36,222 nucleotides of DNA. Source: Chromatiaceae bacterium (GTDB lineage: Bacteria; Pseudomonadota; Gammaproteobacteria; Chromatiales; Chromatiaceae). The position numbers were made by a program, and so were the translations under genes. The DNA is taken from contig JANQGF010000270.1 in the NCBI GenBank assembly GCA_028277465.1, positions 1 through 36,222 of the forward strand. Direction: 5' to 3'. Positions within the stretch are counted from its first letter, which is position 1. Each line of letters opens with the position of its first letter. Below are positions 115 through 28,995 of this stretch, piece by piece. The notes under the pieces are model-generated. The model had not been told where the DNA came from. It did not search any database and saw only the letters and a list, made by a program, of their open reading frames with translations.

Positions 115-597
115 TCAGTGACCAGCCCCTGGAATGCCCCAGGGACCCCACTCGGACCCCGGGCCCCTCATACCACCCATTCCGATGGGGGGCTTCTGGC
201 TCGGGTAGAAGTAGGTGTCGCCGGTCGGGGTAACGCGGAAGGAACCGGCCACATCTCCCATCGAGCTCATGCTGAGATCAGGGGCAGCCATGCCAACCGG
301 ATAGAGCGTGATGCCGGTCGGCGCGACCCGGTAGGCACCGAACATGCCGTGAAAGTCCCGAACCAGTTTCATGTTGGGATAGAGATAGGTGTCTCCGCTC
401 GGGGCGACCCGGTAGTATCCCCCCATACCGGCCATCGCCTTCAGCGCGGTGTCGACGGAGATCTGCGCCGCCTCGGACGAGCCCCCGTTCCCGCTCACTG
501 CTTCCTCTGTATCGGCTTGGGCCGTCGCGACGGCCAGGCCCAGAGCCAGGACCGCTGCAACCTTGGGCGCTTGGGCGATCGAACTCATCTCGAACAT
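115..597 (-). CDS. small exported protein with three YP-motif repeats
   Basis: The product has 160 residues. The ATG at 597 is chosen because a GGAGGAGGAG ribosome binding site lies just before it; longer starts add a low-quality extension. The N-terminus (about residues 1-28) looks like a Sec signal peptide ending ATAQA. The mature part carries three copies of a short motif: YYRVAPSGDTYLYP, AYRVAPTGITLYP and SFRVTPTGDTYFYP. Between and after them it is rich in Met and Gly (GMGGMRG near the end). One copy of the same motif (YFKITPEGAIFFYP) lies inside the Met/Gly repeat protein at 5261-6115, so I infer that the two belong to one system. The gene follows the sigma-54 regulator gene on the same strand with a 140-bp gap containing a weak sigma-54-type promoter. 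I do not recognise a family; the function is unknown. An export or surface/structural role is inference. Confidence 0.72.
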   Translation of the reverse strand: MFEMSSIAQAPKVAAVLALGLAVATAQADTEEAVSGNGGSSEAAQISVDTALKAMAGMGGYYRVAPSGDTYLYPNMKLVRDFHGMFGAYRVAPTGITLYPVGMAAPDLSMSSMGDVAGSFRVTPTGDTYFYPSQKPPIGMGGMRGPGSEWGPWGIPGAGH

Positions 598-737: not shown

Positions 738-2120
738 CTATCCTGGGGCGGAACGGCTTCCCGAACCACACGCATCCACGAGTCCATAGCGGCGAATCAT
801 CCGGTAGATGTTCCGCTCGCTCACATCGAGCACCTCGGCCACCTTGGCGCGACGGCCGGATTGTTTATGGAGTTGCAGTCGCAGATACTCGGCCTGGAGC
901 TCATCGAGGGTGGGATCGTGGTCGAAGCTTACAGTCACCTTCACACCGCTCTTCCCCCCGCTGCTGCCGAAGGCCAAGTGCTCCGGCCGAATGCTGCTGC
1001 TGTCTTGCGACAGGATGATCGCCCGCTCGATCACGTTTCTCAGCTCTCGAACATTGCCTGGCCAGTCGTAGGCGGTCAGACGGCGCAGTGCCTCGCCCGA
1101 GAGACGCTTGTTGATGCGACGCGAAAAGTTGTGGTGCTGAATGAAGTGCGCGGCCAGATAGGGAATGTCGTCGCGACGGGCGCGCAAGGGAGGCACCTCG
1201 ATGACGAAGGTGCTCAGACGGTAGAAGAGGTCCGAGCGGAACCGACCATCCAGGCTCATGGCCTCCAGGTCGCGATTCGTCGCCGCCACGATGCGCGCGT
1301 TGGCCTCCAGATTCTTGGTCCCACCGACGCGCCGGAAGACGCCCGTCTCCAGCACCCGCAGTAGCTTGGCCTGGATGGAGGCCTCGATCTCGCCGATCTC
1401 GTCGAGGAAGAGGGTTCCGTCTTCCGCGCCCTCGATCAGACCCCGCTTGAGCCGATCGGCGCCGGTGAAGGCCCCTCTCTCGTGCCCGAAGAGCTCGGAC
1501 TCGAAGAGCTTCTCCTGCAAGGAGCAGCAGTCCACCGGAACGAAGTTCCGACGCGCCCGACCGCTGCATTCGTGGACTGCGCGGGCCACCAGCTCCTTGC
1601 CGGATCCGCTCTCGCCCTGGATCAGGACATTGACGTCGGTCGGACCGACGGCCGCGATCGTCTCCTTGGTCTTCAACAGGAGGGCACTGACACCTACCAT
1701 GAAGTTGGCCATCGAGTCCCTGGCCTTCAGACGCTGCTGGCAGAAGCGATGATCGTTACGCAGCGCCGCGTCGTCGAGCGCCCGCTTCACCACCAGGCTC
1801 AGCGCATCCGGGCTGGTCGGCTTGACCAGATACTCGTAGGCCCCGGCCTTGATTGCCCCAACGGCGTCGCGCACCGACCCGTAGGCGGTCAACACCACGA
1901 CCGGCTGACTCCTGGCCAAGTCCGGCAGCCGCTCGAGTATGTCGCCGTCGGCAAGCCTCACATCGGCGATGATGAGATGCGGCTCATGGGCGGATAGATG
2001 GGCCTCCGCCCCCGCCCAGCTCCCGGTCCCGGTGGTCTCGTATCCCAGCCGATTGAGCTGACCCACGATCAGCCGATTCAGGGTCAGATCGTCTTCGATC
2101 ACCAGAATCTTCTGGGACAT
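738..2120 (-). CDS. sigma-54-dependent response regulator, NtrC family
   Basis: A 460-residue activator with the full three-domain layout. An N-terminal receiver (about 1-120) has the acidic pair E9-D10/D11 and a phospho-acceptor Asp53 in IIADVRL. A central AAA+ domain (about 140-375) has the Walker A motif GESGSGKE, the sigma-54 contact loop GAFTGA, the Walker B region GTLFLDEIGE and the R-finger region of the family. A C-terminal Fis-type helix-turn-helix reads GRRAKVAEVLDVSERNIYRM. Proteins of this type bind upstream palindromes, form rings and hydrolyse ATP to open sigma-54 promoters. The start lies 3 bp beyond the kinase stop, so the two are co-transcribed. Two palindromes with properly placed sigma-54 promoters near 4.1-4.8 kb are the likely targets (inference). 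No close named homologue is recognised. Confidence 0.95.
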   Translation of the reverse strand: MSQKILVIEDDLTLNRLIVGQLNRLGYETTGTGSWAGAEAHLSAHEPHLIIADVRLADGDILERLPDLARSQPVVVLTAYGSVRDAVGAIKAGAYEYLVKPTSPDALSLVVKRALDDAALRNDHRFCQQRLKARDSMANFMVGVSALLLKTKETIAAVGPTDVNVLIQGESGSGKELVARAVHECSGRARRNFVPVDCCSLQEKLFESELFGHERGAFTGADRLKRGLIEGAEDGTLFLDEIGEIEASIQAKLLRVLETGVFRRVGGTKNLEANARIVAATNRDLEAMSLDGRFRSDLFYRLSTFVIEVPPLRARRDDIPYLAAHFIQHHNFSRRINKRLSGEALRRLTAYDWPGNVRELRNVIERAIILSQDSSSIRPEHLAFGSSGGKSGVKVTVSFDHDPTLDELQAEYLRLQLHKQSGRRAKVAEVLDVSERNIYRMIRRYGLVDACGSGSRSAPG

Positions 2121-2123
2121 GGC

Positions 2124-3980
2124 TCAATGCTCCATCGCCGCGGCGTCCGCATCCGGGAAGAGCACGGTGAACCGACTGCCCTGCCCGAGAACGCTGTCCA
2201 CCTGAATCGCCCCACCATGGCTCTCCACGATGGCCTTGGTGATCGAAAGGCCGAGCCCCGTCCCACGGACACCATCCGCCCGGCGGCTGAAGAAGGGCTC
2301 GAAGATACGGAATCGGTCGCCAGGGCCGATACCGACACCCGTGTCCTCGAACGCGACGGCGATCTGTTCCTCCGAGCGGAAACAGCGCACCGACAGACGG
2401 CCGCCACCCGGCATGGCGTGACAGGCATTCTGAGCCAGGTTCAGGGTCATCATGCGAAGGTCGCTGTCGGCGGCCAACACCCGCAATGGACGGCCCTCGA
2501 CCTCGCAACCGAGATCGATTCCTTGCTCCTTCGCCTCCCAGCCAAGGAGCTTCACGGTCTCCTCGACGATCTGCTCCAAGACGACCAGCTCAGGCTGGGA
2601 CGGGGGGGGCATGCTCAGCTTGAGGAGACGCCCGGTCACTCGCTCGCATGTCGTCACTTCATGGTCGACCAGCTCGAGATATTCGGCGAGCTTGCCGGAA
2701 TCGGGGCGGGGGTCACGACTGATCTGCTCGACCTCGTGCAGGGCCAGACGCAGAGCCGTCAGCGGATTATGGATCTCATGGGCCACCCCGGCGGCAAGGC
2801 GCCCGAGCTCGGAGAGGCGCTGTTCATGGGAGAAACGGACCTGTTGCTCGAGATCGCGGATCGACTCCACGACCATCGGGGTCGGCCTGCCGTCTCGCAC
2901 GGCCTGCATCGGAGCGGCGTAGACCTCCACGTCCAGGCTCCCGCCATCGACCTTGGCATGCCGGTGCACGACTCGCAGCGGCTCTCCAGTCGAGAGCACC
3001 TGCTGAAGGGTACAGAGGGTCAGGGTGTCCGGACAGGGGGTATCGCGCGCGTGGGCGGCCGCGTAGCAGAACTGGGGTGGGCGATCCGTCTCCCGAAAAC
3101 CGAGCTGCTGCCGATAGGTTACGTTGGAGAGCACGACCCGATAGTCACGGTCAATCACGCGGATGCCATCCGGCACAGCATCCACCAGGCCTTGCAGAAA
3201 GACCTCCTTCTCGCGGAGCTCACGAAGCCTCGACTGCAGGCTGTCGGCCATGCGATTGAAGTGATCCCCAAGCAAGGAGAACTCGTCTCGTCCCGGCAGA
3301 TGGATGCGGGCGTCCAGGTCTCCCCGCATCAGACGCTGGCTCACCTCGGAGAGGCGCTCCACGGGCCGCATGACGTAGCGGCGGATGAACCACCAACCAC
3401 CAGTGATATTGATCAGAACGATGAGCGCCCCCGAGCCCATCAGAAGCAGGGTCGTGGTCCACGCCTTGTCGCGGATCGGGGCCGCATCGAAGTCCACGTA
3501 GAGTATCCCACCGAGCGACCTATCCGGGCGCGGCCGATCGCACCCTGGACACGCCCGATCCGTCGCGATCGGATTGACGCTGCGCAGGATCGCCCGCCCG
3601 TCCTGGTCCTCGAGCAGCCGCATCGCAGGCCAATCCTCATCCATCGCGTCCGACCGGTCGAAGGCGGCAAAGCGGCTGGCGCCGCTAGCGAAACGAAGCC
3701 CGCCCGCTGGATCGGTGAGGCTGACCCCCAGGATCCCAGGCTCGCTGGCGAGCCGGTTCACCATCTCTCGCACCCCATCGTCGTCGCCTTTGCGTATCAA
3801 GCCCTCGAGCGATGTCTGGACGAGTCGGCTGACTTGTTCAGCGGTCCTGGCGCGCTCGTCCTCGAGCTGTCCGCGATAGAGGCTCATGAAAAGGATCAAG
3901 AAGAACAGCGAGCTGACGAGGAGCCCGGCGGCCGTGCCAGCAGCGAACTTGCGGTTGAGATTGTCGTTGAGCCAGTGCAT
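2124..3980 (-). CDS. membrane sensor histidine kinase with periplasmic CPGC and a Cys-rich PAS
   Basis: A 618-residue kinase. A first membrane helix spans about residues 12-34, a periplasmic sensor about 35-172, and a second helix about 173-198. A HAMP domain (about 199-255) and a PAS domain (about 258-380) follow. Then come the H-box GVAHEIHNPL with phospho-acceptor His401 and a HATPase domain with the N-box NLAQNACHA and G-boxes DTGVGIG and GTGLGLS. The sensor contains a vicinal pair C144-P-G-C147. The PAS has the pattern CYxxxHxxxxPCxxxxxxC (C305, H310, C316, C323), which suggests metal or redox sensing; this is inference. The architecture resembles NtrY/ZraS-type kinases that pair with NtrC-family regulators, and the partner gene follows directly. 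It is divergent from the small-protein genes to the right. Confidence 0.93.
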   Translation of the reverse strand: MHWLNDNLNRKFAAGTAAGLLVSSLFFLILFMSLYRGQLEDERARTAEQVSRLVQTSLEGLIRKGDDDGVREMVNRLASEPGILGVSLTDPAGGLRFASGASRFAAFDRSDAMDEDWPAMRLLEDQDGRAILRSVNPIATDRACPGCDRPRPDRSLGGILYVDFDAAPIRDKAWTTTLLLMGSGALIVLINITGGWWFIRRYVMRPVERLSEVSQRLMRGDLDARIHLPGRDEFSLLGDHFNRMADSLQSRLRELREKEVFLQGLVDAVPDGIRVIDRDYRVVLSNVTYRQQLGFRETDRPPQFCYAAAHARDTPCPDTLTLCTLQQVLSTGEPLRVVHRHAKVDGGSLDVEVYAAPMQAVRDGRPTPMVVESIRDLEQQVRFSHEQRLSELGRLAAGVAHEIHNPLTALRLALHEVEQISRDPRPDSGKLAEYLELVDHEVTTCERVTGRLLKLSMPPPSQPELVVLEQIVEETVKLLGWEAKEQGIDLGCEVEGRPLRVLAADSDLRMMTLNLAQNACHAMPGGGRLSVRCFRSEEQIAVAFEDTGVGIGPGDRFRIFEPFFSRRADGVRGTGLGLSITKAIVESHGGAIQVDSVLGQGSRFTVLFPDADAAAMEH

Positions 3981-4277: not shown

Positions 4278-4673
4278 ATGAATAGACAGGCTAGGGCCAT
4301 CGGGGCGGGACTCTTGTGGATGGGGACCCTGGTGATGGAATCGGCATTGGCCACCGTGCCCCTGGATGAACAGCCGGACGTCATCGCCTTCGCGCGGATC
4401 GCCGGCTGGCAGATGGCGGCACTTGCCAGGAGAGTGATGGCTCGCTGCTGCTGTTCCCAGTCCATCGAGCCCGAGCCGCACCGACGGCGATGGGATCTCG
4501 CGATCGATCTCACCCCCCAACAAGGGCCCTGCCAGATTGGCAGGTGCACCGAGCCGGAGGTCGCTGCCCGCCGCCCGAGGCCCCGAGATCCCTTGAGAAA
4601 TGCTTTAAGCAACTGTTTTATTAGAGAAAGAACACATTTGCGCAGATCCGTCGTCCCCTCTTGTGCGGGATGA
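4278..4673 (+). CDS. hypothetical small exported protein, C-terminus doubtful
   Basis: The reading frame has 131 codons. The start is supported by GGGCGGG five bases before the ATG and by the sigma-54 promoter at 4209-4224. The first 25 residues (ending in ESALA) look like a signal peptide, and the next 25 or so have good codon usage. After about residue 50 the product becomes Arg/Cys/Pro-rich, and beyond about 4600 the DNA becomes AT-rich with unusual codons, so the true product may be shorter or the gene may be frame-shifted. Another frame from about 4440 to 4595 stays open and is Ser/Pro-rich. No family is recognised. A regulatory RNA or leader from the promoter is an alternative. If the gene is not real, 3981-4901 is a regulatory gap holding the two palindromes and two promoters. 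Confidence 0.38.
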   Translation: MNRQARAIGAGLLWMGTLVMESALATVPLDEQPDVIAFARIAGWQMAALARRVMARCCCSQSIEPEPHRRRWDLAIDLTPQQGPCQIGRCTEPEVAARRPRPRDPLRNALSNCFIRERTHLRRSVVPSCAG

Positions 4674-4812: not shown

Positions 4813-4828
4813 TGGCGCGGATGCTGCT
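4813..4828 (+). promoter_or_regulatory. sigma-54 (-24/-12) promoter 2
   Basis: TGGCGCG-GATG-CTGCT fits TGGCACG-N4-TTGCA, with GG at 4814-4815, ten bases, then GC at 4826-4827. Transcription should start near 4839, about 63 nt before the ATG at 4902. It probably drives the small exported gene at 4902, the Met/Gly protein at 5261 and perhaps the downstream cytochrome and molybdoenzyme genes, since no better promoter was seen before 6330. Confidence 0.62.
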
Positions 4829-4901: not shown

Positions 4902-5201
4902 ATGAAACAGAAAGGCAAGGCTGCGGCCCTGATCAGTGCCCTCTTGGGCCAAAGCGCGCTCAGTGCATCCCTCGGCGGTTACCCCATCGCCGGGACACGA
5001 CCATCCGAACGACCCGCCGGGGCACCGGTGATCCGCGAGGTCCAGAGATCTGCCGACTGGTACAGAGGCGCGCTGACGGGAATCTCACGGCCCTATCCAG
5101 CCAGTCTCGGGTTCCTCGAGGACCAAGGGAACTGGTACACGCCCTTCAATCGACCGGGAATGCTCGGACGCTACGACCTGCGGGGTTGGCACGGCCAGTA
5201 A
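4902..5201 (+). CDS. small exported protein, unknown function
   Basis: A 99-residue product. GGGGTG lies about nine bases before the ATG, and the gene is the first after the sigma-54 promoter at 4813-4828. Residues 1-22 form a probable signal peptide (basic MKQKGK start, then an Ala/Leu core ending SALSA). The mature part is rich in Gly, Tyr, Arg and Pro (for example GGYPIAG, NWYTPFNRPG, GRYDLRGWHG) and has no Cys. I recognise no domain. The next gene, the Met/Gly protein, starts 59 bp downstream on the same strand, so they are probably co-transcribed. The Gly/Tyr bias is loosely reminiscent of sulfur-globule envelope proteins of purple sulfur bacteria, but I cannot claim homology. Confidence 0.65.
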   Translation: MKQKGKAAALISALLGQSALSASLGGYPIAGTRPSERPAGAPVIREVQRSADWYRGALTGISRPYPASLGFLEDQGNWYTPFNRPGMLGRYDLRGWHGQ

Positions 5202-5260
5202 CCCCGCCTTCCCGGAACCGCTAACTGCGCTAACTGTGAATGAACGATGGAGGATCTGGA

Positions 5261-6115
5261 ATGAAGTTGTCATTGAAGAGGTTCAAGAATGCCGCTGTTT
5301 CCGCCATTTTCGGCCTGGCCTTGGCCGGCAGCGGAACGGCGGCTTACAGCATGGGCGGCTGGGTCTGGGTGCCCTCCGGCATGGGCGGCATGTCCGGGAT
5401 GGGCATGGGCGGCATGGGCATGGGCGGCATGTCCGGCATGGGTATGTCAGGCATGCGCGGGATGTACGGTATGGGTGGTATGGGGGGCATGTCCGGCATG
5501 GGCGGCTATTGGGTGCCCGCCGGGATGTACGGTATGTCTGGGATGGGCGGCATGTCGGGAATGGGTGGCATGTCCGGCATGGGTGGCTACTGGGTGCCCG
5601 CCGGGATGTACGGTATGGGTGGCATGGGTGGCATGTCGGGAATGGGCGGCATGGGCGGCTACTGGGTGCCCGCCGGGATGTATGGCATGAGCGGCATGGG
5701 CGGCATGTCGGGAATGTATGGCATGGGCGGCATGAGCGGCATGGGCGGCATGAGCGGCATGGGCGGCATGGGCGGCATGTCGGGAATGTACGGCATGGGT
5801 GGCATGTCCGGCATGTCCGGCTACTTCAAGATCACGCCTGAGGGAGCGATCTTCTTCTATCCCTTCACCGGCATGAGCGGCATGTCCGGGATGGGTGGCA
5901 TGGGCGGCATGTCGGGAATGTACGGCATGGGCGGTATGGGCGGCATGTCGGGAATGTACGGCATGGGTGGCATGTCCGGGATGGGCATGGGCGGTATGGG
6001 TGGCATGTCCGGCATGGGCGGCTGGGTCTGGGTACCCGCCGGGATGCACGGAATGTCTGGCATGGGCATGTCGGGGATGGGTGGCATGTCCAGCTGGAAC
6101 CCACCGTCACAATGA
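5261..6115 (+). CDS. exported Met/Gly-repeat protein (24% Met)
   Basis: A 284-residue product. The ATG at 5261 is chosen over 5240 because GGAGG precedes it by eight bases and a proper signal peptide follows (MKLSLKRFKNAAV..., cleavage near GTAAYS). The mature protein is almost entirely MGG, MSG and MYG triplets: I count 69 Met in 284 residues and no Cys. The repeats are interrupted by five aromatic/Pro modules (GGWVWVPSG, three of GGYWVPAG, GGWVWVPAG) and by one YFKITPEGAIFFYP motif near residue 195. That last motif is shared with the exported protein at 115-597. No known family is recognised. Possible roles, all inference: a Met-based metal (Cu(I)/Ag) or oxidant sink, a scaffold for sulfur or another element, or a surface/structural polymer. 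The context suggests it works with the Mo-enzyme system downstream. Confidence 0.85.
   Translation: MKLSLKRFKNAAVSAIFGLALAGSGTAAYSMGGWVWVPSGMGGMSGMGMGGMGMGGMSGMGMSGMRGMYGMGGMGGMSGMGGYWVPAGMYGMSGMGGMSGMGGMSGMGGYWVPAGMYGMGGMGGMSGMGGMGGYWVPAGMYGMSGMGGMSGMYGMGGMSGMGGMSGMGGMGGMSGMYGMGGMSGMSGYFKITPEGAIFFYPFTGMSGMSGMGGMGGMSGMYGMGGMGGMSGMYGMGGMSGMGMGGMGGMSGMGGWVWVPAGMHGMSGMGMSGMGGMSSWNPPSQ
5341..6096 (+). repeat. coding minisatellite of ATGGGCGGC/ATGTCCGGC-type units
   Basis: Nine-base units coding for Met-Gly-Gly or Met-Ser-Gly are repeated with small variants through most of the gene. The longest exact copy I found is 44 bp, at 5768-5811 and 5936-5979, offset by 168 bp. All units keep the frame, so gain or loss of units would change length without breaking the protein. 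The opposite strand is also open (His/Ala repeats), which is a by-product of the repeat and not a gene. Confidence 0.85.
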
Positions 6116-6329: not shown

Positions 6330-7163
6330 ATGTCGAAGGCGGGTCGCTGGGCGATGCTCATTGCCCCTCTCTTGTGGGTGTCGGCCCAGGGGAACACCCA
6401 AATCCCCGACGGTCTCACTTATGACCAGGCCCGCTGGCATCCATTGCATTTCAAACCGGCGAGCGAGACCGCCGCAGACTATCAATGTCTCGCTTGCCAC
6501 GCGGACATCCTGGAAAGGCGTGTTCGATCCGAGTCGCCCGCGGGCGTCAAGGCAAGCGAGGCGCTGGCCTGGTACGAGACGCTCGACACCTACGAGGGCG
6601 AGGAGGAGACCTTCCATCGCCGCCATCTGGTGACCAACTTTGCAATCCAGGTCATGGACCTCAAGTGCCGCACTTGTCACCTCGGCAACGATCCGCGAGA
6701 GGAGGCCGGGATGTCCCATGCCGGCGGGGACCCGACCCTGATCCAGCGCAAGCAGGTGGATCCCGAGATCTGTCACCTCTGCCACGGCCAGTTTCCTTAC
6801 GAACACATGGGTATCCCAGGTTCCTGGCTGGAGTACGGGCCGGCGTTCCAGAACAACTGCCTGCTCTGTCACATGATGTTCCGAACCAACCGGCACCAGG
6901 TCAACTATCTGAAGCCCCAGGCGATCGAGGCCCTGGCCAAAGAGAAGGAGGACGTCTGCTTCGGCTGTCATGGCGGCCGGCCCTGGTATCGCACCAGCTA
7001 TCCCTATCCACGTCACCCCTGGCCCGGCATGCCCGAGGCCGTGCCCGATTGGGCAAAGGATCGCCCAACCGTCTCGGAGCGCCGCTTCCTGATCGGCATC
7101 GTCCCGCCAGAGGAGCTACCCGCCGCGCCACCGAAGCAAGGCGCGGCCCTCCGCACAAGATGA
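6330..7163 (+). CDS. periplasmic pentaheme cytochrome c
   Basis: A 277-residue product. The ATG at 6330 has GGAGGG seven bases upstream. Residues 1-22 look like a signal peptide. Five CxxCH heme-attachment sites are present: CLACH (53-57), CRTCH (113-117), CHLCH (148-152), CLLCH (177-181) and CFGCH (210-214). Apart from the signal there is no membrane helix, so it should be soluble or only loosely attached in the periplasm. It is not an obvious NapC/NirT type, which keeps its N-terminal anchor. The gene ends 21 bp before the DmsA-like gene and no DmsC-type anchor subunit is encoded nearby. It is therefore the best candidate to exchange electrons with the molybdoenzyme and its ferredoxin subunit (inference). 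The direction of electron flow cannot be told from sequence. Confidence 0.9.
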   Translation: MSKAGRWAMLIAPLLWVSAQGNTQIPDGLTYDQARWHPLHFKPASETAADYQCLACHADILERRVRSESPAGVKASEALAWYETLDTYEGEEETFHRRHLVTNFAIQVMDLKCRTCHLGNDPREEAGMSHAGGDPTLIQRKQVDPEICHLCHGQFPYEHMGIPGSWLEYGPAFQNNCLLCHMMFRTNRHQVNYLKPQAIEALAKEKEDVCFGCHGGRPWYRTSYPYPRHPWPGMPEAVPDWAKDRPTVSERRFLIGIVPPEELPAAPPKQGAALRTR

Positions 7164-7184: not shown

Positions 7185-9767
7185 ATGAATCGCCGCGACG
7201 ACCTCTCCTTCCTGGACGCGCGCCTCAATCTCACACGCCGCAGCCTCCTGAAATCTGCCGCCGCCAGCGCCGCGGCGTTCGGCGCCGGCGGTCTGCTCAA
7301 GCTCGAGCCGGCGCGGGCCTTCTCCTACGAGCCCTACCCGCGAGACGACGCGCTCGAGACCGTCGTGACCAGTTGCGCACACAATTGCGGCTCGCGCCAT
7401 ATGCTGGTCGCGCACAAGCAGGGTGATGTCATCGTCCGCATCTCCACCGACGACGGGCGCTATCAGCGCGATGGATTCTTCGGCAAGGACACCGAGGAAG
7501 AGCCCCAGGTACGCGGCTGTCTGCGCGGACGCGCCTACCGCCAGCGGCTCTACTCGCCGGAGCGTCTACTCTATCCGATGGCGCGCGTCGGCAAGCGAGG
7601 CGAGGGCAAGTTCAAGCGCATCAGCTGGGACGAGGCACTCGAGCAGATCGCGAACAAGATGATCGAGATCAAGCAGAAGTATGGCTCCACCGCCCTGCTC
7701 GACCAGAGCTACGCGGGTGCCTCTTACGGCGTGCTGCACAAGTCCGATCAGATCGAGGGGCTGCTCGGCCGCCTTCTCGGCATGTTCAGCTGCCGCACCA
7801 CCTCCTGGTCGGTGCCCTCGTACCAGGGCACGACCGCCAGCTCACGCTGGACCTTCGGGACCATCGAGGACGGCAACGAGGACGATACCTTCGCCCACTC
7901 CAAACTGGTCATCATGTGGGGCTGGAACCCGGCTTACACCTTCCATGGCGGCAACACCTTCTATTATCTGCGCCTGGCCAAACAGAGGGGCTGCAAGTTC
8001 GTGCTCGTCGATCCCCAGTACACGGACTCGGCCGCTTGTTACGATGCCTGGTGGATCCCGATCAAGCCCAATACGGATGGCGCCATGTTGGCGGCGATGG
8101 CCCACTACATCTTCGTCAACGAGCTCCAGGATCAGGGCTTCATCGACCGCTTCTGTCAAGGCATGGATGCCGGGACCATGCCGGTTTGGGCCTCCGGGAG
8201 CTCGAATGGCCAGGAAAACTTCAAGGACTACATCCTGGGCGCCTATGACGGTCAGCCCAAGACGCCCGAGTGGGCTGCACCCATCTGCGGCGTCTCCCCG
8301 GAGGACATCCGCAAGCTCGCCCACCTCTATGCCACGACCAAGCCGGCGGCGCTCAAGGCCTCCTGGGCGCCCGGTCGCAATGCCTACGGCGAGCAGTACA
8401 ATCGGCTGGCGGCGGCCCTGCAGGCCATGACCGCCAATATCGGCAACCTGGGGGGATGCGCCGAGGGCGTCGGCAAGGCCTGGCACGCGGAGGCCGTCGC
8501 CTATCCCTACGATCAGTATGCCAACGTCTGGTTTGCCTCGATCAAGTCGGATCGATGGGCACATTGCGTGCTGAACTATCCCAATGTCGGCCGCGAAGAG
8601 GTCGGACTCTGGCCGCGCGAGGATCAGCTCGATGGCGTGATTCCAAACATCAAGGGGATCTTCTGGCAGGGCTCGGACTGGTTCAACCAGCTCACCAACA
8701 TCAACAAAGAGATCAAGGCCATCGACAAGCTCGAGCTGGTGGTCTGCATGGATTCCACCATCACCCCCTCCGGGCTCTATGCCGACATACTGCTCCCGGT
8801 GGCCACCCACTTCGAGCGTCACGACGTCGCACTGCCCTGGTACAAGGGGCATTATTACATCCATCGGCCCAAGGTCATCGAGCCCATGGGCGAGTCCAAG
8901 ACGGATTTCCAGATCTTCACCGAGCTGGCTTACCGAATCGGCTGGAAGACGGGCCTGGGCGACCGCTTCGGCAAGACCTACAACCCGAAGGCCGACCGCA
9001 GCTACTTCCTCGAACCCGACCCGGTCGACGAGGCCTATCTGCGGCAATGGTGGGAGGGCCGCGTCATGCGCCACCAGAAGGTGGACATGCCGTGGGAGGA
9101 GTTCAAGCAGCGGGGCATCTACAAGTTCAAGCTGGATCGGCCGCACGTCGCCTTTCAGGATCAGATCGAGAAGGGCAAGCCTTTCGCGACGCCATCGGGA
9201 AAGATCGAGATCCTCTCCTCGCAGCTGGCCCAGGTCACTGACTGGACTCGGACCATGTACGGCTATCACATCCCTTCCATTCCGAAATGGATCGAGCCCT
9301 GGGAGTCACTGAACAGCCCCCAGACCGCCAAGTATCCCTTCCATTTGATCTCACCGCACCCGCGCTGGCGGACGCACTCCATCTTCAACAACTGCAGCTG
9401 GCTGCGGGAGACCTACGAGCAGGAGGTCACCATCAATGCAGCGGATGCCGCCCGGCTGCGTATCCGCACCGGCGATACGGTCGAGCTGTGGAACGAGCGC
9501 GGGCGGGTCGTGGCTCCAGCCTATGTGACCGAGCGCTGCATGCCCGGGGTGCTGGTGCTGCATGAAGGGGCCTGGCTCGACCTCGACGACAACGGCGTGG
9601 ATCGCTCCGGCAACCCGGACATGCTGACACTGGACGAGCCCAGCCCGGCCGGGGCCTTCGCCTACAACACGGTTCTCTGCAACCTCCGCAAGACCGAACT
9701 GGAGCACAGACCCGGTTGGGACAGACTCGCGACCTCACGCTCGCACGTCTTCCGGCGTGAGCTCTGA
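7185..9767 (+). CDS. Tat-exported DmsA-like molybdopterin oxidoreductase
   Basis: An 860-residue catalytic subunit of the DMSO-reductase family. A twin-arginine signal (LTRRSLLKSAAA, Arg18-Arg19) ends near PARA45, so the enzyme is exported folded to the periplasm. The N-terminal cluster-binding region reads C64-x3-C68-x3-H72...C112 (then LRGR), so the third Cys of the DmsA motif is replaced by His. By recalled alignment with E. coli DmsA, Ser212 in VPSYQ matches the Mo-ligating Ser, placing it with DmsA-type enzymes. Other DmsA-like stretches include VDPQYTDSAA, ADILLPVATHFE, TPSGKIEI and the C-terminal MPGVLVLHEGAW. It is followed by DmsB-like and TorD-like genes. Likely substrates of the family are S- or N-oxides, or chalcogen or halogen oxyanions. 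The actual substrate and the direction of the reaction are unknown. Confidence 0.93.
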   Translation: MNRRDDLSFLDARLNLTRRSLLKSAAASAAAFGAGGLLKLEPARAFSYEPYPRDDALETVVTSCAHNCGSRHMLVAHKQGDVIVRISTDDGRYQRDGFFGKDTEEEPQVRGCLRGRAYRQRLYSPERLLYPMARVGKRGEGKFKRISWDEALEQIANKMIEIKQKYGSTALLDQSYAGASYGVLHKSDQIEGLLGRLLGMFSCRTTSWSVPSYQGTTASSRWTFGTIEDGNEDDTFAHSKLVIMWGWNPAYTFHGGNTFYYLRLAKQRGCKFVLVDPQYTDSAACYDAWWIPIKPNTDGAMLAAMAHYIFVNELQDQGFIDRFCQGMDAGTMPVWASGSSNGQENFKDYILGAYDGQPKTPEWAAPICGVSPEDIRKLAHLYATTKPAALKASWAPGRNAYGEQYNRLAAALQAMTANIGNLGGCAEGVGKAWHAEAVAYPYDQYANVWFASIKSDRWAHCVLNYPNVGREEVGLWPREDQLDGVIPNIKGIFWQGSDWFNQLTNINKEIKAIDKLELVVCMDSTITPSGLYADILLPVATHFERHDVALPWYKGHYYIHRPKVIEPMGESKTDFQIFTELAYRIGWKTGLGDRFGKTYNPKADRSYFLEPDPVDEAYLRQWWEGRVMRHQKVDMPWEEFKQRGIYKFKLDRPHVAFQDQIEKGKPFATPSGKIEILSSQLAQVTDWTRTMYGYHIPSIPKWIEPWESLNSPQTAKYPFHLISPHPRWRTHSIFNNCSWLRETYEQEVTINAADAARLRIRTGDTVELWNERGRVVAPAYVTERCMPGVLVLHEGAWLDLDDNGVDRSGNPDMLTLDEPSPAGAFAYNTVLCNLRKTELEHRPGWDRLATSRSHVFRREL

Positions 9768-9855: not shown

Positions 9856-10524
9856 ATGGCTGAACAGAAAGACCAGGCGAAGATCAAGGAGGCGATCAAG
9901 CGCCGCAAGCGAGAGACCTATACCCCGGTGGTCCCGGACATGCAGCTCGGGTTCGTCCACCACAATGTCGATTGCATCGGCTGTCGCGCCTGTGAGATCG
10001 CCTGCAAGGACAAGAACGGCCTGCCACCTGGACCGCGGTTCCGGCGTGTCCTCTATATCGAGGGGGGGACCTATCCCGAGGTCTATGCCTACAAGGTCAA
10101 CCTCTCCTGCAACCACTGCGCGGAGCCCGCCTGTCTGCCGGCCTGCCCGACCGGGGCCATCTGGAAGCGCAAGGACAACGGGATCGTGGATATCGACTCG
10201 ACGCTCTGCATCGGCTGTCGACGCTGCGAAGCGACCTGCCCCTATGGTGCGCCCCAGTTCATCCCTGAGGAGAAGATCGTCTCCAAATGCAATCTATGCG
10301 TGGACGAGATCGAGGCGGGCCGCAAGCCCTACTGTGTGATGGCCTGCATGATGCGGGTGCTGGACATCGGCCCCATCGATCTGCTGGCCGAGAATCGCGT
10401 CCCCACGCCTGCCATCGGACCCAACGAGGAGCCGGTGCGCCTGGTCAAGGGTTTCGCGGATCCGGAGCTCACCAATCCCTCCATCCTCTTCGTGGCCCAC
10501 AGCAAGGGGAAGGTCGAAAGATGA
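9856..10524 (+). CDS. DmsB-like ferredoxin subunit with four [4Fe-4S] clusters
   Basis: A 222-residue protein preceded by GGAGA. It has sixteen cluster Cys in the usual four-group pattern: CIGCRACEIAC, CNHCAEPACLPAC, CIGCRRCEATC and CNLC...C...C. It begins without a signal peptide, as expected for a subunit that is carried through the Tat pore with the signal-bearing catalytic subunit. It would pass electrons between the molybdoenzyme and an outside partner, here probably the pentaheme cytochrome. It is separated from the catalytic gene by 88 bp and overlaps the next gene by ATGA. The C-terminal 35 or so residues after the last cluster group match no motif I know. Confidence 0.93.
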   Translation: MAEQKDQAKIKEAIKRRKRETYTPVVPDMQLGFVHHNVDCIGCRACEIACKDKNGLPPGPRFRRVLYIEGGTYPEVYAYKVNLSCNHCAEPACLPACPTGAIWKRKDNGIVDIDSTLCIGCRRCEATCPYGAPQFIPEEKIVSKCNLCVDEIEAGRKPYCVMACMMRVLDIGPIDLLAENRVPTPAIGPNEEPVRLVKGFADPELTNPSILFVAHSKGKVER

Positions 10525-11312
10525 CTGCCATCGCTCGCCAGATCCCGATCGCCGCCCCGACCATCGCGTCCTTCCGCAGGGCGGCCGCCGAGGACCTGCT
10601 CACCCTCGCGCTGCTACACGACCGGGAGTTGGACCGCGGGCTGGTCCTATCACTCTGGGAGCACTGCTACGAGGACTTCCTGGGGCTGCGTCTGCAAGGA
10701 AGGCGCGGCTCGGAGGCACTGGCACTGCTGCGCGAGGGCCTGACGGACCTGCCGACCGATTTGGGATCCGAGACCCTCGACCGGCTCGCCGCCGACTATG
10801 CAGACATCTACCTGACCTATGGGCTGCGGGCCTCGCCCTGCGAGTCGGTCTGGCTCGATCAGGACAACCTCAGGTTGCAGGCGCCCATGTTCCGGGTCCG
10901 CGACTGGTATCGGCGTCATGGCGTCACAGTCGAGGATTGGCGTAAGCGCAGCGACGACCACCTGGTCCATCAATTGCGTTTCCTATCCCATCTGATCGGC
11001 ACCGAGGGGGGACGAGTGGATCTCACCGAGGCGGCAGGCTTCATGGACGAGCATCTCCTGCAGTGGATCGACCGCTTCGCCGAGCGCGTGGTGTCCCGGT
11101 GCGCGACCCGCGTCTACGCGGGCCTGGCCCTCCTGACCGCAGCCTATCTCGATGAGCTTCGCGATCTCATCGCCGATCTACTCGGGACTCCCCGCCCACT
11201 CCCGGAAGCGCTCGCAACGCCGATCGCGCAGGAGACGTCGCCGGGACCTGCCCCCGGCCGGCACCGCGAGCTGGGCGCCTCCCACTTTCCGCAGGCGGTA
11301 CCCGGCTGGTAG
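10521..11312 (+). CDS. TorD/DmsD-family chaperone for the molybdoenzyme
   Basis: A 263-residue product starting at the ATG inside the ATGA overlap with the ferredoxin-subunit gene, so it is translationally coupled. TorD-family features are visible in the middle: YADIYLTYGLRASPCESVW, then PMFRVRDWYRRHGV, then the DDHLVHQLRFLSHLIG helix region. Such proteins bind the Tat signal of a partner molybdoenzyme in the cytoplasm, hold it until the cofactor is inserted and prevent early export. The partner should be the product of 7185-9767. The protein is longer than usual because of a Pro/Arg-rich C-terminal tail of about 40 residues with no clear fold. Confidence 0.88.
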   Translation: MTAIARQIPIAAPTIASFRRAAAEDLLTLALLHDRELDRGLVLSLWEHCYEDFLGLRLQGRRGSEALALLREGLTDLPTDLGSETLDRLAADYADIYLTYGLRASPCESVWLDQDNLRLQAPMFRVRDWYRRHGVTVEDWRKRSDDHLVHQLRFLSHLIGTEGGRVDLTEAAGFMDEHLLQWIDRFAERVVSRCATRVYAGLALLTAAYLDELRDLIADLLGTPRPLPEALATPIAQETSPGPAPGRHRELGASHFPQAVPGW

Positions 11313-11325
11313 CCCCGCGACCCCA

Positions 11326-12399
11326 ATGGCACTCCATCCCGGGAGGACCAAACCGCCAGATCTGCCGCTCCCGGAACTGGATGCGGCCCGGTGCGTCCAC
11401 TCGCACCTGGAGCAAGCGAGCTGCCATGCCTGCGTGGATCGATGCCCCAACGGCGCTTGGTTGTTGGACGATGAGCGGTTGGGTCTCGATTCGACCCGCT
11501 GCGACGGCTGTGGTCTCTGCGCGCCCGCCTGCCCCGAAGAGGCCATCGCGGAGACCTTTGTGCCGGTCCATTACGAGCTCGAGGGTCGCGGCAACGCCTT
11601 CGCTGCCTGTGTCCTCGCCGGCGTCCGGACGGATCGCGGGACGGCCCCGGAGGGGCTCCTGCCTTGTCTGCACGTTCTGGGGGTGCGCATACTCCTGAGG
11701 TTGCACCAAGCGGGCGTGCGGCGTCTCATGCTCTGCAGTGGCGACTGCGATTGCTGTCCGCGCGGAAGAGTCACCCGCATCGAGTCCTCGCTCGCGCAGG
11801 TCGAGGCATTACTTCGGGATCGGGGTCTCGATCCCTTGGAGGTCATCGCGCTCGAGCCGAAGGCGTGGGTGGTTCGCTTGGAGGCTGCCCGTGAACGACA
11901 CCAGCCGTCGGCACTCGGCCGGCGCAGCTTTCTGCGCGGCGTCCTCTCGGCCGCCACCGAGACGGCGAGCGAGCTCGCAGAGGGGATCGGTCGCCGTCGG
12001 CCGGCCAGCACCCCGCCGGGCCGATTGGTCCCGCGCCCGGCCGGCAGCGGACTGCGGCTTCACGCCCCGCGGATCCAAGCCGAGCGCTGCACCGGCTGCG
12101 ACGCCTGTGTCCGTCTCTGCCCCCACGAGGTCATTCGGGTCGAGGCGCAGGCCTATCGCTTCGCCCCGGACGACTGCACTGGGTGCGGCATCTGCACCGA
12201 TGTCTGCGCCTCAAGCGCGATCTCGATCCGCCGGCTGGACCCCTCCCCTCCAAACCGGGTCCAGCTCTACCCCGGCCGGTGCGCGGCCTGTGGGATCGCC
12301 TTCCACCTGCCGCGGCCGAGAAGCGGCTCGGCAAGGGACCTCTGCCCCATCTGTGCACGAACGAACCACCATCAGCGGCTCTTTCAGCGGTTCTCTTAA
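11326..12399 (+). CDS. multi-cluster iron-sulfur protein with internal RRSFLRG motif
   Basis: A 357-residue product if translation starts at the ATG at 11326; no clear ribosome binding site is seen and the frame is open further upstream, so the start is tentative. The N-terminal third has two ferredoxin groups (C33-x2-C-x3-CP and CDGCGLCAPACP at 59-70). A middle stretch contains a CSGDCDCCPRG motif (137-147). Residues 198-210 read LGRRSFLRGVLSA, which resembles a Tat motif but is far inside the protein. Two more [4Fe-4S] groups follow (CTGCDACVRLC, CTGCGICTDVC), then CAAC...CPIC, a zinc-ribbon-like pair. It looks like an N-terminal ferredoxin module joined to a NapF/NapG-like module. It follows the TorD gene by 13 bp, so a role in assembly or electron supply for the molybdoenzyme is inferred. 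Confidence 0.8.
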   Translation: MALHPGRTKPPDLPLPELDAARCVHSHLEQASCHACVDRCPNGAWLLDDERLGLDSTRCDGCGLCAPACPEEAIAETFVPVHYELEGRGNAFAACVLAGVRTDRGTAPEGLLPCLHVLGVRILLRLHQAGVRRLMLCSGDCDCCPRGRVTRIESSLAQVEALLRDRGLDPLEVIALEPKAWVVRLEAARERHQPSALGRRSFLRGVLSAATETASELAEGIGRRRPASTPPGRLVPRPAGSGLRLHAPRIQAERCTGCDACVRLCPHEVIRVEAQAYRFAPDDCTGCGICTDVCASSAISIRRLDPSPPNRVQLYPGRCAACGIAFHLPRPRSGSARDLCPICARTNHHQRLFQRFS

Positions 12400-24872: not shown

Positions 24873-26957
24873 TCATGACCCGGGATCCGGCACCCGCACC
24901 ACCTCGCACAGGCTGGACTTGAAGGGCGGGAAACCGCTGATGGGATCCAGATGACGATCGTCGGTCAGCTCGTTCACATTGGCACTGTTCCAGCCATGGA
25001 CACAATGCACCACGCCCGGCTTGATGCGGTCGGTGACCCGGGCAACGAAAGGCACCGACCCACGGGGTGAACGGACCTCGACCGGGTCCCCGTCGCCGAT
25101 CCCGCGCGCCCGCGCATCCTCCGGGTGGATCTCGACCAAGGGATCCGGCACCGCTCGTCGCATCCGCTCGAGATATTGATGCTGGGAGTGGGTATCGAAC
25201 TTGGTCCGCGCCCCACTGGTGAGTACCAGCGGAAAGTCGCGCGCCACCTCAGGGGTCGAGATGGGGCTCTCGGCCGGCTCTCGGTAGACCGGCAGGCCCT
25301 CGTGACCGGCCTCCTTCAGCTCGCCCGAATCGAGCTCCACCTTGCCGCTGGCGGTGGGGAAACCATGCAGTCGATAGAGGCGGTCGGCGTCCAGAAAGCC
25401 ATGCTCGACCATCTCCTCGATGGCCTCGGAGTACACGGTCACGCCAGCCGGATTGCGATAGACCTCCTCGCGAATGCCTTGCGGAAGACCCTCGGCCGCC
25501 TCCGCCCAGCATGCCTCGAGGTCACCCTGCCAGAAGTCATCGCCCATACCGAGACGCACCCCGAGCTCGAGAAAGATGGCACCGTCGGGCCGCGCCTCGC
25601 CTTTGGGCGCCACGACCGAACGCCGATATCTCAACTGGCCTTGATAGGCGCAGCCGGGATAGGCGATCAGGGCCGGCCGCTCGAGATTGGTGGCCGCAGG
25701 AAGCACGATATCCGCCTGAAGCGTTGCCGGATTATGGAAGAAGTCGGACACGGCGAAGAAATCCAGGCTGGCCAGGGCTCGCTCCATCCGCTTCGAATTG
25801 GGCCACATGGCCGTATTGATCCCCATGGCGAGCAGGGCGCGGACCCGTTGCGGGCGTCCTTCCAAGATGGCGTCCGGCAACAGCATGCTCTGGGCGGCAG
25901 GCCAATAGCGGGTCCAAATCGGATAGACCTCGTCGCCGATCCTGGGTGGAAGGCGGTCGCGGCAGTGATCGAAGCGCTCGATCGGCTTGGGCAAGACCTT
26001 GTCGGTGAAAAAGCGGTTTCCCCCCTCGCGGTCCAGATTCCCGGTCACGGCCGACAGAAGAATCACCGCCCGGTGGTTCTGGAAGCCGTTGCTGTGTTGC
26101 ACGGTTGCGGTCGGCGAGAGGGTGATCTGGGCAGGCGACGTCGTGGCGAAGATCTCGCCTGCAGCACGCAGGTCGTCCGCGTCGATGCCGCAGATCGCCG
26201 CCACTCGCTCCGGGACGAATTCACGGACATAGTCCCGAAAGGCCTCGACACCCTTGCACCACTGATCGAGAAAGGCCTGATCCTGCCAACCGTTGGCGAA
26301 GATGAGATGATGCAGGCCCAGGGCCAACGCACCGTCCGTCCCGGGCCGGATTTGTAGATGGATGTCGGCCTGATCCGCCAAGGGGGTGCGGCGCGGATCC
26401 ACCACGATGATCCGCCGCCCCGCCTGCGGGGCCGCCAGCGGGTGGTGGTCGAAGGGCGGTATCGAGCCCCGCGGATTGGTCGACCAGATGAGATGGCAGC
26501 GCGTCTTGGGGGAGACGACGGTCGAGGTGGTCTTGATCTTATAGCCAAAGGTGACCTTCTCGGCCACCATGGTGGCCGAGAAGCAGCAGCCACTCTCGGT
26601 CAGATAGTTGGGTGACCCAAAGGAGTGAGCCAGGCGTTGGAGCTGAGGCCTCGCCTCCTTGGTGTAGCCGGCGAAGAAGGCGACCGCCGGCGCACCCTGC
26701 ACGGCTCGAACCGCCGCCAGGTGCTCGGCGACGGTGTCGAGCGCCTCGTCCCAGGAGATCGGCTCGAACTCACCACTCCCGCGGTGCCCGACCCGCTTGA
26801 GCGGCCTCAGGAGTCGCTCCGGATGGTTCCGCCGATCGAGCTGTACATAGCAGCGTGGACAATCCGGGCCCTTGACCCTGATCGGTTCTCCGCTCCCATC
26901 GAGCTCGACCTCGATGGGACAATTGGCATCGCATTCGTAACAGGTACTCGACAACAT
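24873..26957 (-). CDS. cytosolic molybdopterin oxidoreductase, Cys-ligand type
   Basis: A 694-residue protein from the ATG at 26957, which has AGGA upstream; a TTG at 27020, right after the ams stop, would add 21 residues. There is no Tat or Sec signal, so it should stay in the cytoplasm. The N-terminus carries a [4Fe-4S] motif (C6-x2-C9-x3-C13, then C33 or C36 in DCPRC). The segment ESGCCFSATMVA offers a Cys (124 or 125) at the Mo/W-ligand position, as in the PhsA/PsrA/FdhF/NapA side of the family. DPRRTPLADQADIHLQIRPGTDGALALG and the C-terminal HGWNSANVNELT region fit the family. No ferredoxin or membrane subunit is next to it, so it uses a free redox partner or, like acetylene hydratase, catalyses a non-redox reaction. 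The substrate is unknown. Confidence 0.88.
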   Translation of the reverse strand: MLSSTCYECDANCPIEVELDGSGEPIRVKGPDCPRCYVQLDRRNHPERLLRPLKRVGHRGSGEFEPISWDEALDTVAEHLAAVRAVQGAPAVAFFAGYTKEARPQLQRLAHSFGSPNYLTESGCCFSATMVAEKVTFGYKIKTTSTVVSPKTRCHLIWSTNPRGSIPPFDHHPLAAPQAGRRIIVVDPRRTPLADQADIHLQIRPGTDGALALGLHHLIFANGWQDQAFLDQWCKGVEAFRDYVREFVPERVAAICGIDADDLRAAGEIFATTSPAQITLSPTATVQHSNGFQNHRAVILLSAVTGNLDREGGNRFFTDKVLPKPIERFDHCRDRLPPRIGDEVYPIWTRYWPAAQSMLLPDAILEGRPQRVRALLAMGINTAMWPNSKRMERALASLDFFAVSDFFHNPATLQADIVLPAATNLERPALIAYPGCAYQGQLRYRRSVVAPKGEARPDGAIFLELGVRLGMGDDFWQGDLEACWAEAAEGLPQGIREEVYRNPAGVTVYSEAIEEMVEHGFLDADRLYRLHGFPTASGKVELDSGELKEAGHEGLPVYREPAESPISTPEVARDFPLVLTSGARTKFDTHSQHQYLERMRRAVPDPLVEIHPEDARARGIGDGDPVEVRSPRGSVPFVARVTDRIKPGVVHCVHGWNSANVNELTDDRHLDPISGFPPFKSSLCEVVRVPDPGS

Positions 26958-27021
26958 CTCGGCAGGGTCCTGACTCGTGGTTCGCAGCGAGTCAGTGCGA
27001 GCCCCGAGCAGAGATTTCAAC

Positions 27022-28995
27022 CTAGAAGAGCGTTCTCGTCTGCTGGCTGGTGAGCCAGTAGAAGCGAAAGGGTGGAATCACCACACGATTGTTGAAGAGA
27101 GCCGGCGCCTCGCCTGTCACCAGATCCTCGAGCTGACCATAACGCAAGAACCCCCGCCTCCCGAGCTCCTCCAGATCCAGGTACTGAGGTGCCGCGTCGA
27201 AATTGGCCGCGACCAAGACCGAACTCGCCTCCATCGTCGGATGATTGCGCAGGAACACGAAGAGATGCGGATTGCTGACGTCGACCAGCTCGCGGTTATT
27301 GAAGTCCGCAAAGGCCAAGGTGGTCTTGCGCACCGCGATCATGTGCTTGAGCCCATTGAAGATGTGCTGCTCGTGCGTCCCATGCAGGTGGCGCCGATCG
27401 GCGCGCTCCCAGTTGATCCGGGGGCGGTGAATCCAGCGCGTGTCGCCCGCCTTGTTCACGTCCTGAAGGAAGGAGCTGTCATTCAGCGTGCCAAGCTCAT
27501 CCCCATACCAGACCAGCGGGATACCGCCGAACGACAAGACCATTCCGTGCAGGGTCAGGATCAGATCCAAGGCATGCCGAATGGCCGCCTGGTCGTCGGC
27601 CTCCAGAGCGGTCTCCAGCCCTGCGAGTGAGGCCAGGGCGCCGGAGATGCGGGCATCCCCGGTCTTGGGGTTGACGCCGAACGGACGCCCGCGGCTCGGC
27701 GAGCCCTCGAAGGCGCCCGTGAACCAGTCGACCAGAAAATGACGGTGGGCGAAAGGTTCATAGTCGCAGGCGCGAATGTCCGTATCCTCGAACCCGAGAC
27801 CGATATCGTCGTGACAACGGGCATAGTTGAGCCAAGTCGCCCGGTCCAGTTTGTCGGGCAGGTTCCTGATGCCCTGATTGAGTAGCTTGGCGTTCTTGGT
27901 GGCGACCGCGTCCCAGAGCAAGGCCATGAAGGTCGCGTTATAGGCGATCTCGCACTCCTTGGCGATCACGGCGTCTTCGCCGAAGTACTTGATGATCTCC
28001 GAGGGGGCCACGATCGCCTCGGCGATGAAGAGGACACCGGGCGCGACGACTTGGCAACAGTCCTTCATGAGCTGCAGGATCAGATGGGCCTCGCGCTCGT
28101 TCTGGCAGCTGGTCCCGATCTTCTTCCACAAGAAGGCGACCGCATCCAGCCGCACGATGTCCGCACCCTGATTGGCCCAGAAGAGGATGATGTCCACCAT
28201 CTCGATGAAGACGGCCGGGTTGGAGTAATTCAGGTCCCACTGATAGTCGTTGAAGACCGTCATCACCCACTTGTCCATGGTCTCGTCCCAGGTGAAATTG
28301 CCCGGGGCGGTCTCGGGGAAGATCTCCGGCATGGTCTCCTCGAACATGTCGGGCACGTCGCGCTTGTCGAAGACGTAATAGAAGCCCTGAAAGGCCGGGT
28401 CACCGGTACGCGCCTGCTGGGCCCATTCGTGCTCGTTGGAGGTGTGGTTGACCACGACATCGAGGGTAAGCAACATGCCGCGCTGGCGCATGGTCTCGGA
28501 CAGGGTCCGGACGTCTTCGACCGTTCCGGCGCGCGGGTCGATATCGCGGAAGTCGCTCACCGCGTAGCCCCCGTCGCTAGCACCCTGTGGACAGCGCAGG
28601 ATCGGCATCACATGGACCATGTTGATACCGAGCTCCTGCAGATAGGGCAGACGCTGGACGAGCCCCGGGAGATCCCCGGCGAAACCGTCCAGATAGAGCG
28701 CCATACCGACCCATTCCTGGCTGAGGAACCAGTTGTGATCGCCCTCGCGCGCCATGTCGATCTCCTCGAGGGCCCGCGGTCGATCGATATAGGCCCGGGC
28801 GAGTCGCTCGGTGAGTGCGATGATCTGTCGCTTGAAGTCCTGGCGATGGCCGTAGAGATGACTGAAGAGCGAGTGGATCACATAGAAGTTCGCGCCCAGA
28901 CGAGTATAGAAATGGCGCAAGTCCTCGCGTCTGACCGTGAGACTGAGCTCGTCGAGAATCTCGTTGAGCAATGCGTGTGAGACTTGCTCGTACAT
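27022..28995 (-). CDS. ams: amylosucrase
   Basis: A 657-residue GH13 enzyme that moves glucose from sucrose to alpha-1,4-glucan, freeing fructose. The length and an all-helical N-terminus (about 1-90) fit amylosucrases. The four conserved regions are present: DVVVNHTSNEHEW, IVRLDAVAFLWKK with the nucleophile Asp, FIAEAIVAPSE with the acid Glu, and CHDDIGLGF with the stabilising Asp. The segments AFLWKK and HDDIG favour amylosucrase over sucrose phosphorylase or plain alpha-amylase. It starts 12 bp after fructokinase. In the same operon it allows breakdown of the sucrose made by the sps/spp genes, the arrangement described in halotolerant methanotrophs. Confidence 0.93.
   Translation of the reverse strand: MYEQVSHALLNEILDELSLTVRREDLRHFYTRLGANFYVIHSLFSHLYGHRQDFKRQIIALTERLARAYIDRPRALEEIDMAREGDHNWFLSQEWVGMALYLDGFAGDLPGLVQRLPYLQELGINMVHVMPILRCPQGASDGGYAVSDFRDIDPRAGTVEDVRTLSETMRQRGMLLTLDVVVNHTSNEHEWAQQARTGDPAFQGFYYVFDKRDVPDMFEETMPEIFPETAPGNFTWDETMDKWVMTVFNDYQWDLNYSNPAVFIEMVDIILFWANQGADIVRLDAVAFLWKKIGTSCQNEREAHLILQLMKDCCQVVAPGVLFIAEAIVAPSEIIKYFGEDAVIAKECEIAYNATFMALLWDAVATKNAKLLNQGIRNLPDKLDRATWLNYARCHDDIGLGFEDTDIRACDYEPFAHRHFLVDWFTGAFEGSPSRGRPFGVNPKTGDARISGALASLAGLETALEADDQAAIRHALDLILTLHGMVLSFGGIPLVWYGDELGTLNDSSFLQDVNKAGDTRWIHRPRINWERADRRHLHGTHEQHIFNGLKHMIAVRKTTLAFADFNNRELVDVSNPHLFVFLRNHPTMEASSVLVAANFDAAPQYLDLEELGRRGFLRYGQLEDLVTGEAPALFNNRVVIPPFRFYWLTSQQTRTLF

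Follow-up and report, generated by a model that had tools for sequence, protein, structure and literature searches.

The closest described counterparts of the locus reported here are MrpX and BcrX, methionine-rich peptides that are encoded beside MsrPQ and that counter HOCl (PMC4623255; PMC8315932). Methionine sulfoxide (MetO) bound in proteins is also reduced by DorA and BisA, including that of the disordered beta-casein (PMC7402097; PMC10653797), and DorA prefers a QWGAGM(O) peptide to a GYM(O)EE peptide. Repair of beta-casein MetO by these two enzymes is only partial, which has been ascribed to epimer specificity, and calmodulin-bound MetO is not repaired by MtsZ (PMC10653797). In lucinid symbionts, dmsAB genes adjoin soxY-S1c, and DMSO has been proposed as an alternative electron acceptor (PMC11237559). 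In situ, during the upwelling season, the top 100 transcripts of lucinid symbionts include those of dmsB and dmsD, and in Thiodiazotropha these two increase together with sulfur-oxidation genes, including aprAB (PMC12172469).

Here, we describe an exported methionine-rich protein whose gene serves as the signature of a conserved operon that had gone unrecognised and that occurs chiefly in sulfur oxidisers and in symbionts of animals. The window, by which we mean the whole stretch of 36,222 nucleotides analysed (contig JANQGF010000270.1 of the Chromatiaceae bacterium assembly GCA_028277465.1), contains the operon with its regulators (Table 1). This defines a protein family that lacks annotation and an operon conserved among proteobacterial lineages.

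Results

The Met-rich protein has 69 Met, 106 Gly, 31 Ser, 9 Pro, 4 Lys and 1 His among its 284 residues, with no Cys and no Asp. Its repeat is M-[SGYN]-G, none of the nine Pro lies within the M-x-G repeats, and a further Met stands at exactly +3 from 56 of the 69 Met, compared with a mean of 16.5 and a maximum of 28 in 10,000 shuffles of the same composition. Five WVP sites are present, in modules starting at residues 34, 84, 111, 135 and 255. The translation and the shuffle test agree with a preliminary description of this DNA, which had pointed out the Met content, the absence of Cys, the five WVP modules and the Met periodicity. Export, also proposed there, is indicated by a Sec-type N-terminus; an alternative start in the same frame, the ATG at 5240, might lengthen the protein by 7 residues. 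The mature protein holds only one Arg and one Lys, which suggests that proteomics would overlook it because trypsin barely cuts it.

Table 1 Features of the window around the Met-rich gene
Feature	Coordinates	Strand	Evidence and details
Exported protein, three YRV.P.G.TYLYP-type beta-hairpin modules	115..588	-	Pfam: 0 matches
NtrC-type sigma-54-dependent response regulator	738..2120	-	PF00158, PF00072; 56-79% identical homologues beside operon in relatives
Membrane histidine kinase	2124..3980	-	HAMP, PAS, HisKA, HATPase
Sigma-54 promoter, TGGCGCGGATGCTGCT	4813..4828	+	Score 12.2
Small exported protein, first operon gene	4902..5201	+	Upstream of Met-rich gene in relatives
Met/Gly-repeat exported protein (Met-rich protein)	5261..6115	+	284 aa
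Sec signal peptide, aa 1-28, MKLSLKRFKNAAVSAIFGLALAGSGTAA	5261..5344	+	Read by eye; AF2 helix 6-22
Beta-hairpin module, GYFKITPEGAIFFYP, aa 187-201 region	5819..5863	+	AF2 pLDDT about 94
Exported pentaheme c-type cytochrome	6330..7163	+	PF14522, PF09699; 5 CXXCH in 49/49 homologues
Tat-exported DmsA-like bis-MGD molybdoenzyme	7185..9767	+	TIGR02166 603 bits (below cut-off)
DmsB-like iron-sulfur subunit	9856..10524	+	TIGR02951 193 bits
TorD/DmsD-type maturation chaperone	10521..11312	+	Synteny; homologue L035 12977-13756 matches PF02613
Polyferredoxin-like protein	11326..12399 (start approximate)	+	Several Fer4 domains; kept in relatives

A Pfam search with the protein gave no match, and an NCBIfam search returned just collagen-like adhesins far under the cut-off, in line with the earlier statement that no described family of this composition is known. 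Collagen matches in the PDB and NCBIfam were dismissed as matches of composition. No published description was found in the literature searched (subscription journals lay outside its reach, and an earlier description is possible). In the AF2 model the beta-hairpin alone is confident, with most of the remainder below pLDDT 50, and the protein is predicted to be largely disordered. The hairpin sequence, GYFKITPEGAIFFYP, is a sixth aromatic element that the preliminary description did not contain, and the module is conserved in relatives. An exported protein with GW.V....DGS[IL][IL]FYPP repeats, which resembles the hairpin module, is conserved between kinase and operon in relatives (L033 8101-8856, L035 6176-6943, L038 11366-12373, L042 7656-8540, L043 7518-8453 and L047 8000-8941); the window has no clearly recognisable counterpart, the nearest ORF being 4278-4673.

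Matches to the Met-rich protein occur in 39 of 142 related genomes. Most of the matched ORFs share its M-x-G repeats, begin with a Sec-like sequence and as a rule contain one or two hairpin modules. When 84,980 species genomes were scanned with a degenerate DNA pattern of this module, 68 loci emerged, almost all gammaproteobacterial, in Ca. Thiodiazotropha and other lucinid symbionts, endosymbionts of Lamellibrachia and Escarpia, Sedimenticola, Thiolapillus, Thiohalocapsa halophila and Thiorhodococcus. Homologues with conserved periodicity, on whose existence the preliminary description had made its reading depend, thus number in the dozens. E-values are inflated for low-complexity repeats; our conclusions rest on synteny and enzyme searches. 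Many of the relatives are drafts, whose contigs are broken by the repeats. Four weak matches in the phylum (G098, G150, G199 and G236) have surroundings without such an operon, and that of G199 is collagen-like.

The entire gene set, regulators included, is also found on the conjugative plasmid pEJ01 of Rhodobacter xanthinilyticus LPB0142, which makes spread of the operon by plasmids plausible; the Met-rich protein there (WP_198037905.1) is annotated as 'hypothetical protein'. Querying viral contigs and plasmids with the Met-rich protein gave no match, a result probably affected by low-complexity filtering, since the pEJ01 copy came up via DmsA. The hairpin module is lost from the plasmid form and from the Met-rich protein of genome G118 (repeat MYGMRGMGGM), and Met is kept in both; the G118 gene lies directly before cytochrome-DmsA-DmsB. 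The same genome encodes an exported Met/Cys repeat protein (SMDGKGMEGKCGEGKCGGDKAQAG; L159 4475-5050), unlike the other Met-rich proteins. Further Met/Gly-repeat proteins (L048 9648-10433, L050 9695-10405, L025 and L026) have Cys-containing WVCT modules or WWKIWK-type C-termini. Those of genomes G020 (L050) and G035 (L048) differ in their modules and lie distant from the reductase operon; their neighbours are not clearly informative, and L048 is close to hydrogenase-like genes.

Across 81 Met-rich ORFs, Met occupies 3,850 of the 3,860 central positions of M-x-G-X-x-G-M units, Val one, and Leu and Ile none, a count that may be inflated by repeat homogenisation and by the M-flanked search pattern. 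Gly codons in the repeats are mixed (GGC 56%, GGT 29%, GGA 12%, GGG 3%), and this synonymous diversity implies that the repeats have been reached by mutation. A chance DNA repeat is ruled out, given that Met is fixed while synonymous codons differ. By the same comparison of relatives, which hold M-x-G in frame while their Gly codons differ, the reading frame and the repeat are genuine features of the protein. There is selection for Met, and what it keeps is the thioether, because hydrophobicity alone would allow Leu, Ile or Val.

Thioethers could also serve a soft metal, and the Met-rich protein might bind Cu(I) or Ag(I), either to shield periplasmic metalloenzymes or to supply them. Met-x-x-Met spacing is frequent in copper proteins, and Met would be accessible in a chain predicted to be disordered. 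However, copper proteins combine Met with His and Asp, which the M-x-G repeats lack (the whole protein has a single His), and the partner that recurs is a molybdoenzyme rather than any copper gene; we regard metal binding as highly improbable. For contrast, genome G076 (L042 1793-3769) encodes, just past the regulator, a multicopper-oxidase-like protein with a GMDHSKMAMGG repeat of Met, His and Asp. The metal- or oxidant-binding polymer of the preliminary description stands in its oxidant-interacting part, given the near-invariant Met and a partner of the S/N-oxide-reductase type, whereas metal binding has no positive support.

A survey of the neighbourhood in relatives, which the preliminary description had suggested, places the Met-rich gene in a conserved DmsA-type operon. 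The recurring order is small exported protein, Met-rich protein, pentaheme cytochrome c, DmsA-like molybdoenzyme, DmsB, TorD and ferredoxin, in Chromatiales, lucinid and tubeworm symbionts, other proteobacterial lineages and the Rhodobacter plasmid, with the NtrC-type regulator and membrane kinase usually divergent beside it. The small exported protein has 23 invariant alignment columns and belongs to no family; AF2 gave no confident fold for it (pLDDT 49). The protein at 115..588 is probably an accessory part of the system, judging from its relatives, which lie within the operon in genome G591 (L186 13449-13925) and directly after the ferredoxin gene in Thiorhodococcus (L034 2089-2655). Elsewhere in the window, a second molybdopterin oxidoreductase of 714 aa (24873-27020, minus strand; PF00384, PF01568) adjoins an alpha-amylase family glycosidase (27022-28995, minus strand; PF00128).

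The partnership of Met-rich protein and reductase is near-obligatory. Among 210 genomes of the order, the enzyme is present in 63 and the Met-rich protein in 72; 59 contain both and 134 neither (Fisher p 3e-34, a guide only, as the species are non-independent). In an even sample of the phylum (398 genomes), the enzyme clade occurs in four other genomes, each of which also encodes the Met-rich protein; the gene order is complete in three and interrupted by a contig end in the fourth. Several of the exceptions within the order likewise reflect broken contigs: edges cut the locus in G053 and G054 (Met-rich gene beside kinase and regulator) and in G064 (contig beginning just before the cytochrome), and in G066 cytochrome and enzyme are broken. 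G020 is a real exception, having the operon without a local Met-rich copy and Met-rich genes elsewhere in the genome. MsrP was dismissed as the partner: PF00174 is found in only about half of the carriers, and in the window genome its sole match is partial and on another contig, with no msrP or msrQ adjoining the Met-rich gene. Several genomes contain a second cytochrome-DmsA copy, 70-75% identical (L149 4499-8662, L147 5225-8627, L186 16046-19998, L187). A Met-rich gene was not seen directly before it in G019 and G083; in G591 (by coordinates also in G593, G600 and G612) an extra Met-rich gene lies a few kb upstream. These copies are possibly paralogous systems.

DmsA-like enzymes in the relatives' loci are about 70-89% identical to that of the window. 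By sequence, the enzyme is a distinct clade of the DmsA branch, a reading based on several features combined. Its TIGR02166 (DMSO/selenate reductase A) score is 603 bits against a cut-off of 777.7, and its nearest solved structures are DorA and MtsZ. S209 and S212 are both invariant at the Mo-ligand region (n = 41; two alignments disagree on which is the equivalent of the ligand), as is Tyr176 (n = 41), which phmmer aligns to the active-site Tyr of DorA. In the FS0 motif (CxxxCxxxH...C) the third Cys is His in all 41 sequences, and a DmsC-type gene between DmsB and the operon end is absent in the window, the relatives and the annotated plasmid. The pentaheme cytochrome c is the likely electron donor to the enzyme.

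The lack of a DmsC-type membrane subunit leaves room for another anchor, and the Met-rich protein could be a scaffold that joins enzyme and cytochrome, or an outer-membrane holder, while the DmsAB-type enzyme respires DMSO, another small S- or N-oxide or an oxyanion. The annotation of the lucinid enzyme as dmsAB, with DMSO as suggested acceptor (PMC11237559), is in keeping with such a role, and the predicted hairpin modules could serve as docking sites for partners. Invariant Met is not something that a scaffold requires, yet a single Val and no Leu or Ile replace it in 3,860 positions, and it is the hairpin module, not Met, that the G118 and plasmid forms drop. We therefore consider this reading unlikely.

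Sigma-54 control, apparent already in the preliminary description, is supported by the promoter TGGCGCGGATGCTGCT in the window and by stronger equivalent sites in relatives. The window site scores right at the shuffled 95th percentile (12.2) of a hand-weighted scheme; about 50 loci have TGGCAC-N5-TTGC-like sites ahead of the first gene, with scores mostly of 12.6-14.8 and exceeding that percentile in most, and the pEJ01 copy has no clear sigma-54 site. The periplasmic sensor domain of the kinase has a c-type heme motif in relatives, with the CxxCH His kept in 23 of 25 homologues; in the window the motif is degenerate (CPGCD).

ORFs that read as soxYZ, yeeE and dsrAB come after the operon in Ca. 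Thiodiazotropha endoloripes, and for this reason the dmsAB genes beside soxY-S1c of lucinid symbionts are very probably the present operon. The dmsB and dmsD transcripts of the upwelling season would likewise belong to it, because, within the T. endolucinida genome, the operon's dmsB matches far better than any other gene. These links, together with the rise of dmsB and dmsD alongside aprAB (PMC12172469) and carriers that, where named, are mostly sulfur oxidisers and their symbiotic relatives, would fit a structural protein of the sulfur-globule type, or a carrier of sulfur or polysulfide for the enzyme to reduce or oxidise. Against this, both genes are missing from 134 of the 210 genomes of the order, dsr genes were not seen adjoining the operon in Sedimenticola sp. 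BM503 (G010) or G076, sulfur genes do not adjoin the copy on the Rhodobacter plasmid, and sulfur chemistry with unoxidised thioethers is not obvious. A role as globule protein or sulfur carrier is thus decidedly improbable. The scaffold for an elemental product that the preliminary description had also envisaged fares no better, as the same genome count and the absence of any tie to sulfur or selenium particles do not bear it out.

Discussion

We think it somewhat more probable than not, and likelier than any other reading considered here, that the Met-rich protein is a periplasmic Met/MetO sink recharged by the DmsAB-type reductase. What the genomes show is the coupling of polymer and reductase; the proposed reaction between them is modelled on MrpX-MsrPQ and on the action of DorA and BisA on protein-bound MetO. 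The polymer would be secreted and largely disordered, sacrificial yet rechargeable, with its Met side chains oxidised to MetO by reactive oxygen species, by hypohalous acids or by reactive compounds that arise as sulfur is oxidised. The Tat-exported molybdoenzyme would return MetO to Met with electrons from the pentaheme cytochrome c, the aromatic hairpin modules may link or anchor polymer chains, and the heme-type-sensor kinase and NtrC-type regulator would activate the operon from the sigma-54 promoter. If the enzyme shares the epimer specificity to which the partial repair of beta-casein by DorA and BisA is ascribed, one MetO epimer might accumulate.

Several points weigh against a rechargeable sink. 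The enzyme might instead act on a small sulfoxide or on an inorganic oxyanion, an MsrP-type protein is also present in about half of the Met-rich carriers, and the upwelling rise of Thiodiazotropha dmsB and dmsD accompanies sulfur oxidation, with no known setting of oxidative stress. It is also conceivable, although improbable, that the polymer is a reversible electron sink, whose stored MetO would be respired by DmsAB and the cytochrome when oxygen is short; if so, what the annotated DMSO reductase of chemosynthetic symbionts respires is a protein. The rechargeable sink, for its part, offers a candidate physiological substrate for the 'DMSO reductase' of lucinid clam symbionts, of which dmsB and dmsD are such prominent transcripts.

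Among known systems, collagen-like proteins share with the window protein a Gly at nearly every third repeat residue, but its repeats lack Pro, have Met at nearly every X position and are predicted to be disordered. The sulfur globule proteins SgpA-D of purple sulfur bacteria are exported and repetitive and come from the same bacterial group. The window protein differs in being dominated by Met, in belonging to a molybdoenzyme operon and in occurring on an alphaproteobacterial plasmid, and no link to globules was seen. The DMSO-selenate reductases DmsABC and YnfEFGH have in common with the operon the set of DmsA, DmsB and TorD/DmsD, the Tat signal and a Ser in the Mo-ligand region, at about 35% identity. 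The window operon differs by the missing DmsC, the Cys-to-His change in FS0 and the TIGR02166 score below the cut-off, and adds a multiheme cytochrome and the Met-rich protein. DorA and MtsZ are the best PDB matches of the enzyme, and DorA and BisA act on protein-bound MetO. All three are single catalytic subunits with no DmsB partner, and we know of none that is encoded beside a Met polymer.

MrpX and BcrX, with MsrPQ (YedYZ) in Azospira suillum and Brucella melitensis, likewise combine an exported Met-rich protein with an adjacent molybdenum enzyme. They are proposed to be sacrificial Met sinks recharged from the respiratory chain via a MetO reductase, an activity that the present enzyme would share. 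The components differ throughout: MXKDX repeats there and M-x-G here (4 Lys, no Asp), MsrP there and a DmsA-like bis-MGD enzyme here, MsrQ there and probably the pentaheme cytochrome c here, and an ECF sigma/anti-sigma pair there and two-component sigma-54 control here, with aromatic hairpins here only. If the sink reading is true, the pairing of a Met sink with a molybdenum sulfoxide reductase has at least two separate origins, each with its own repeat and its own enzyme.
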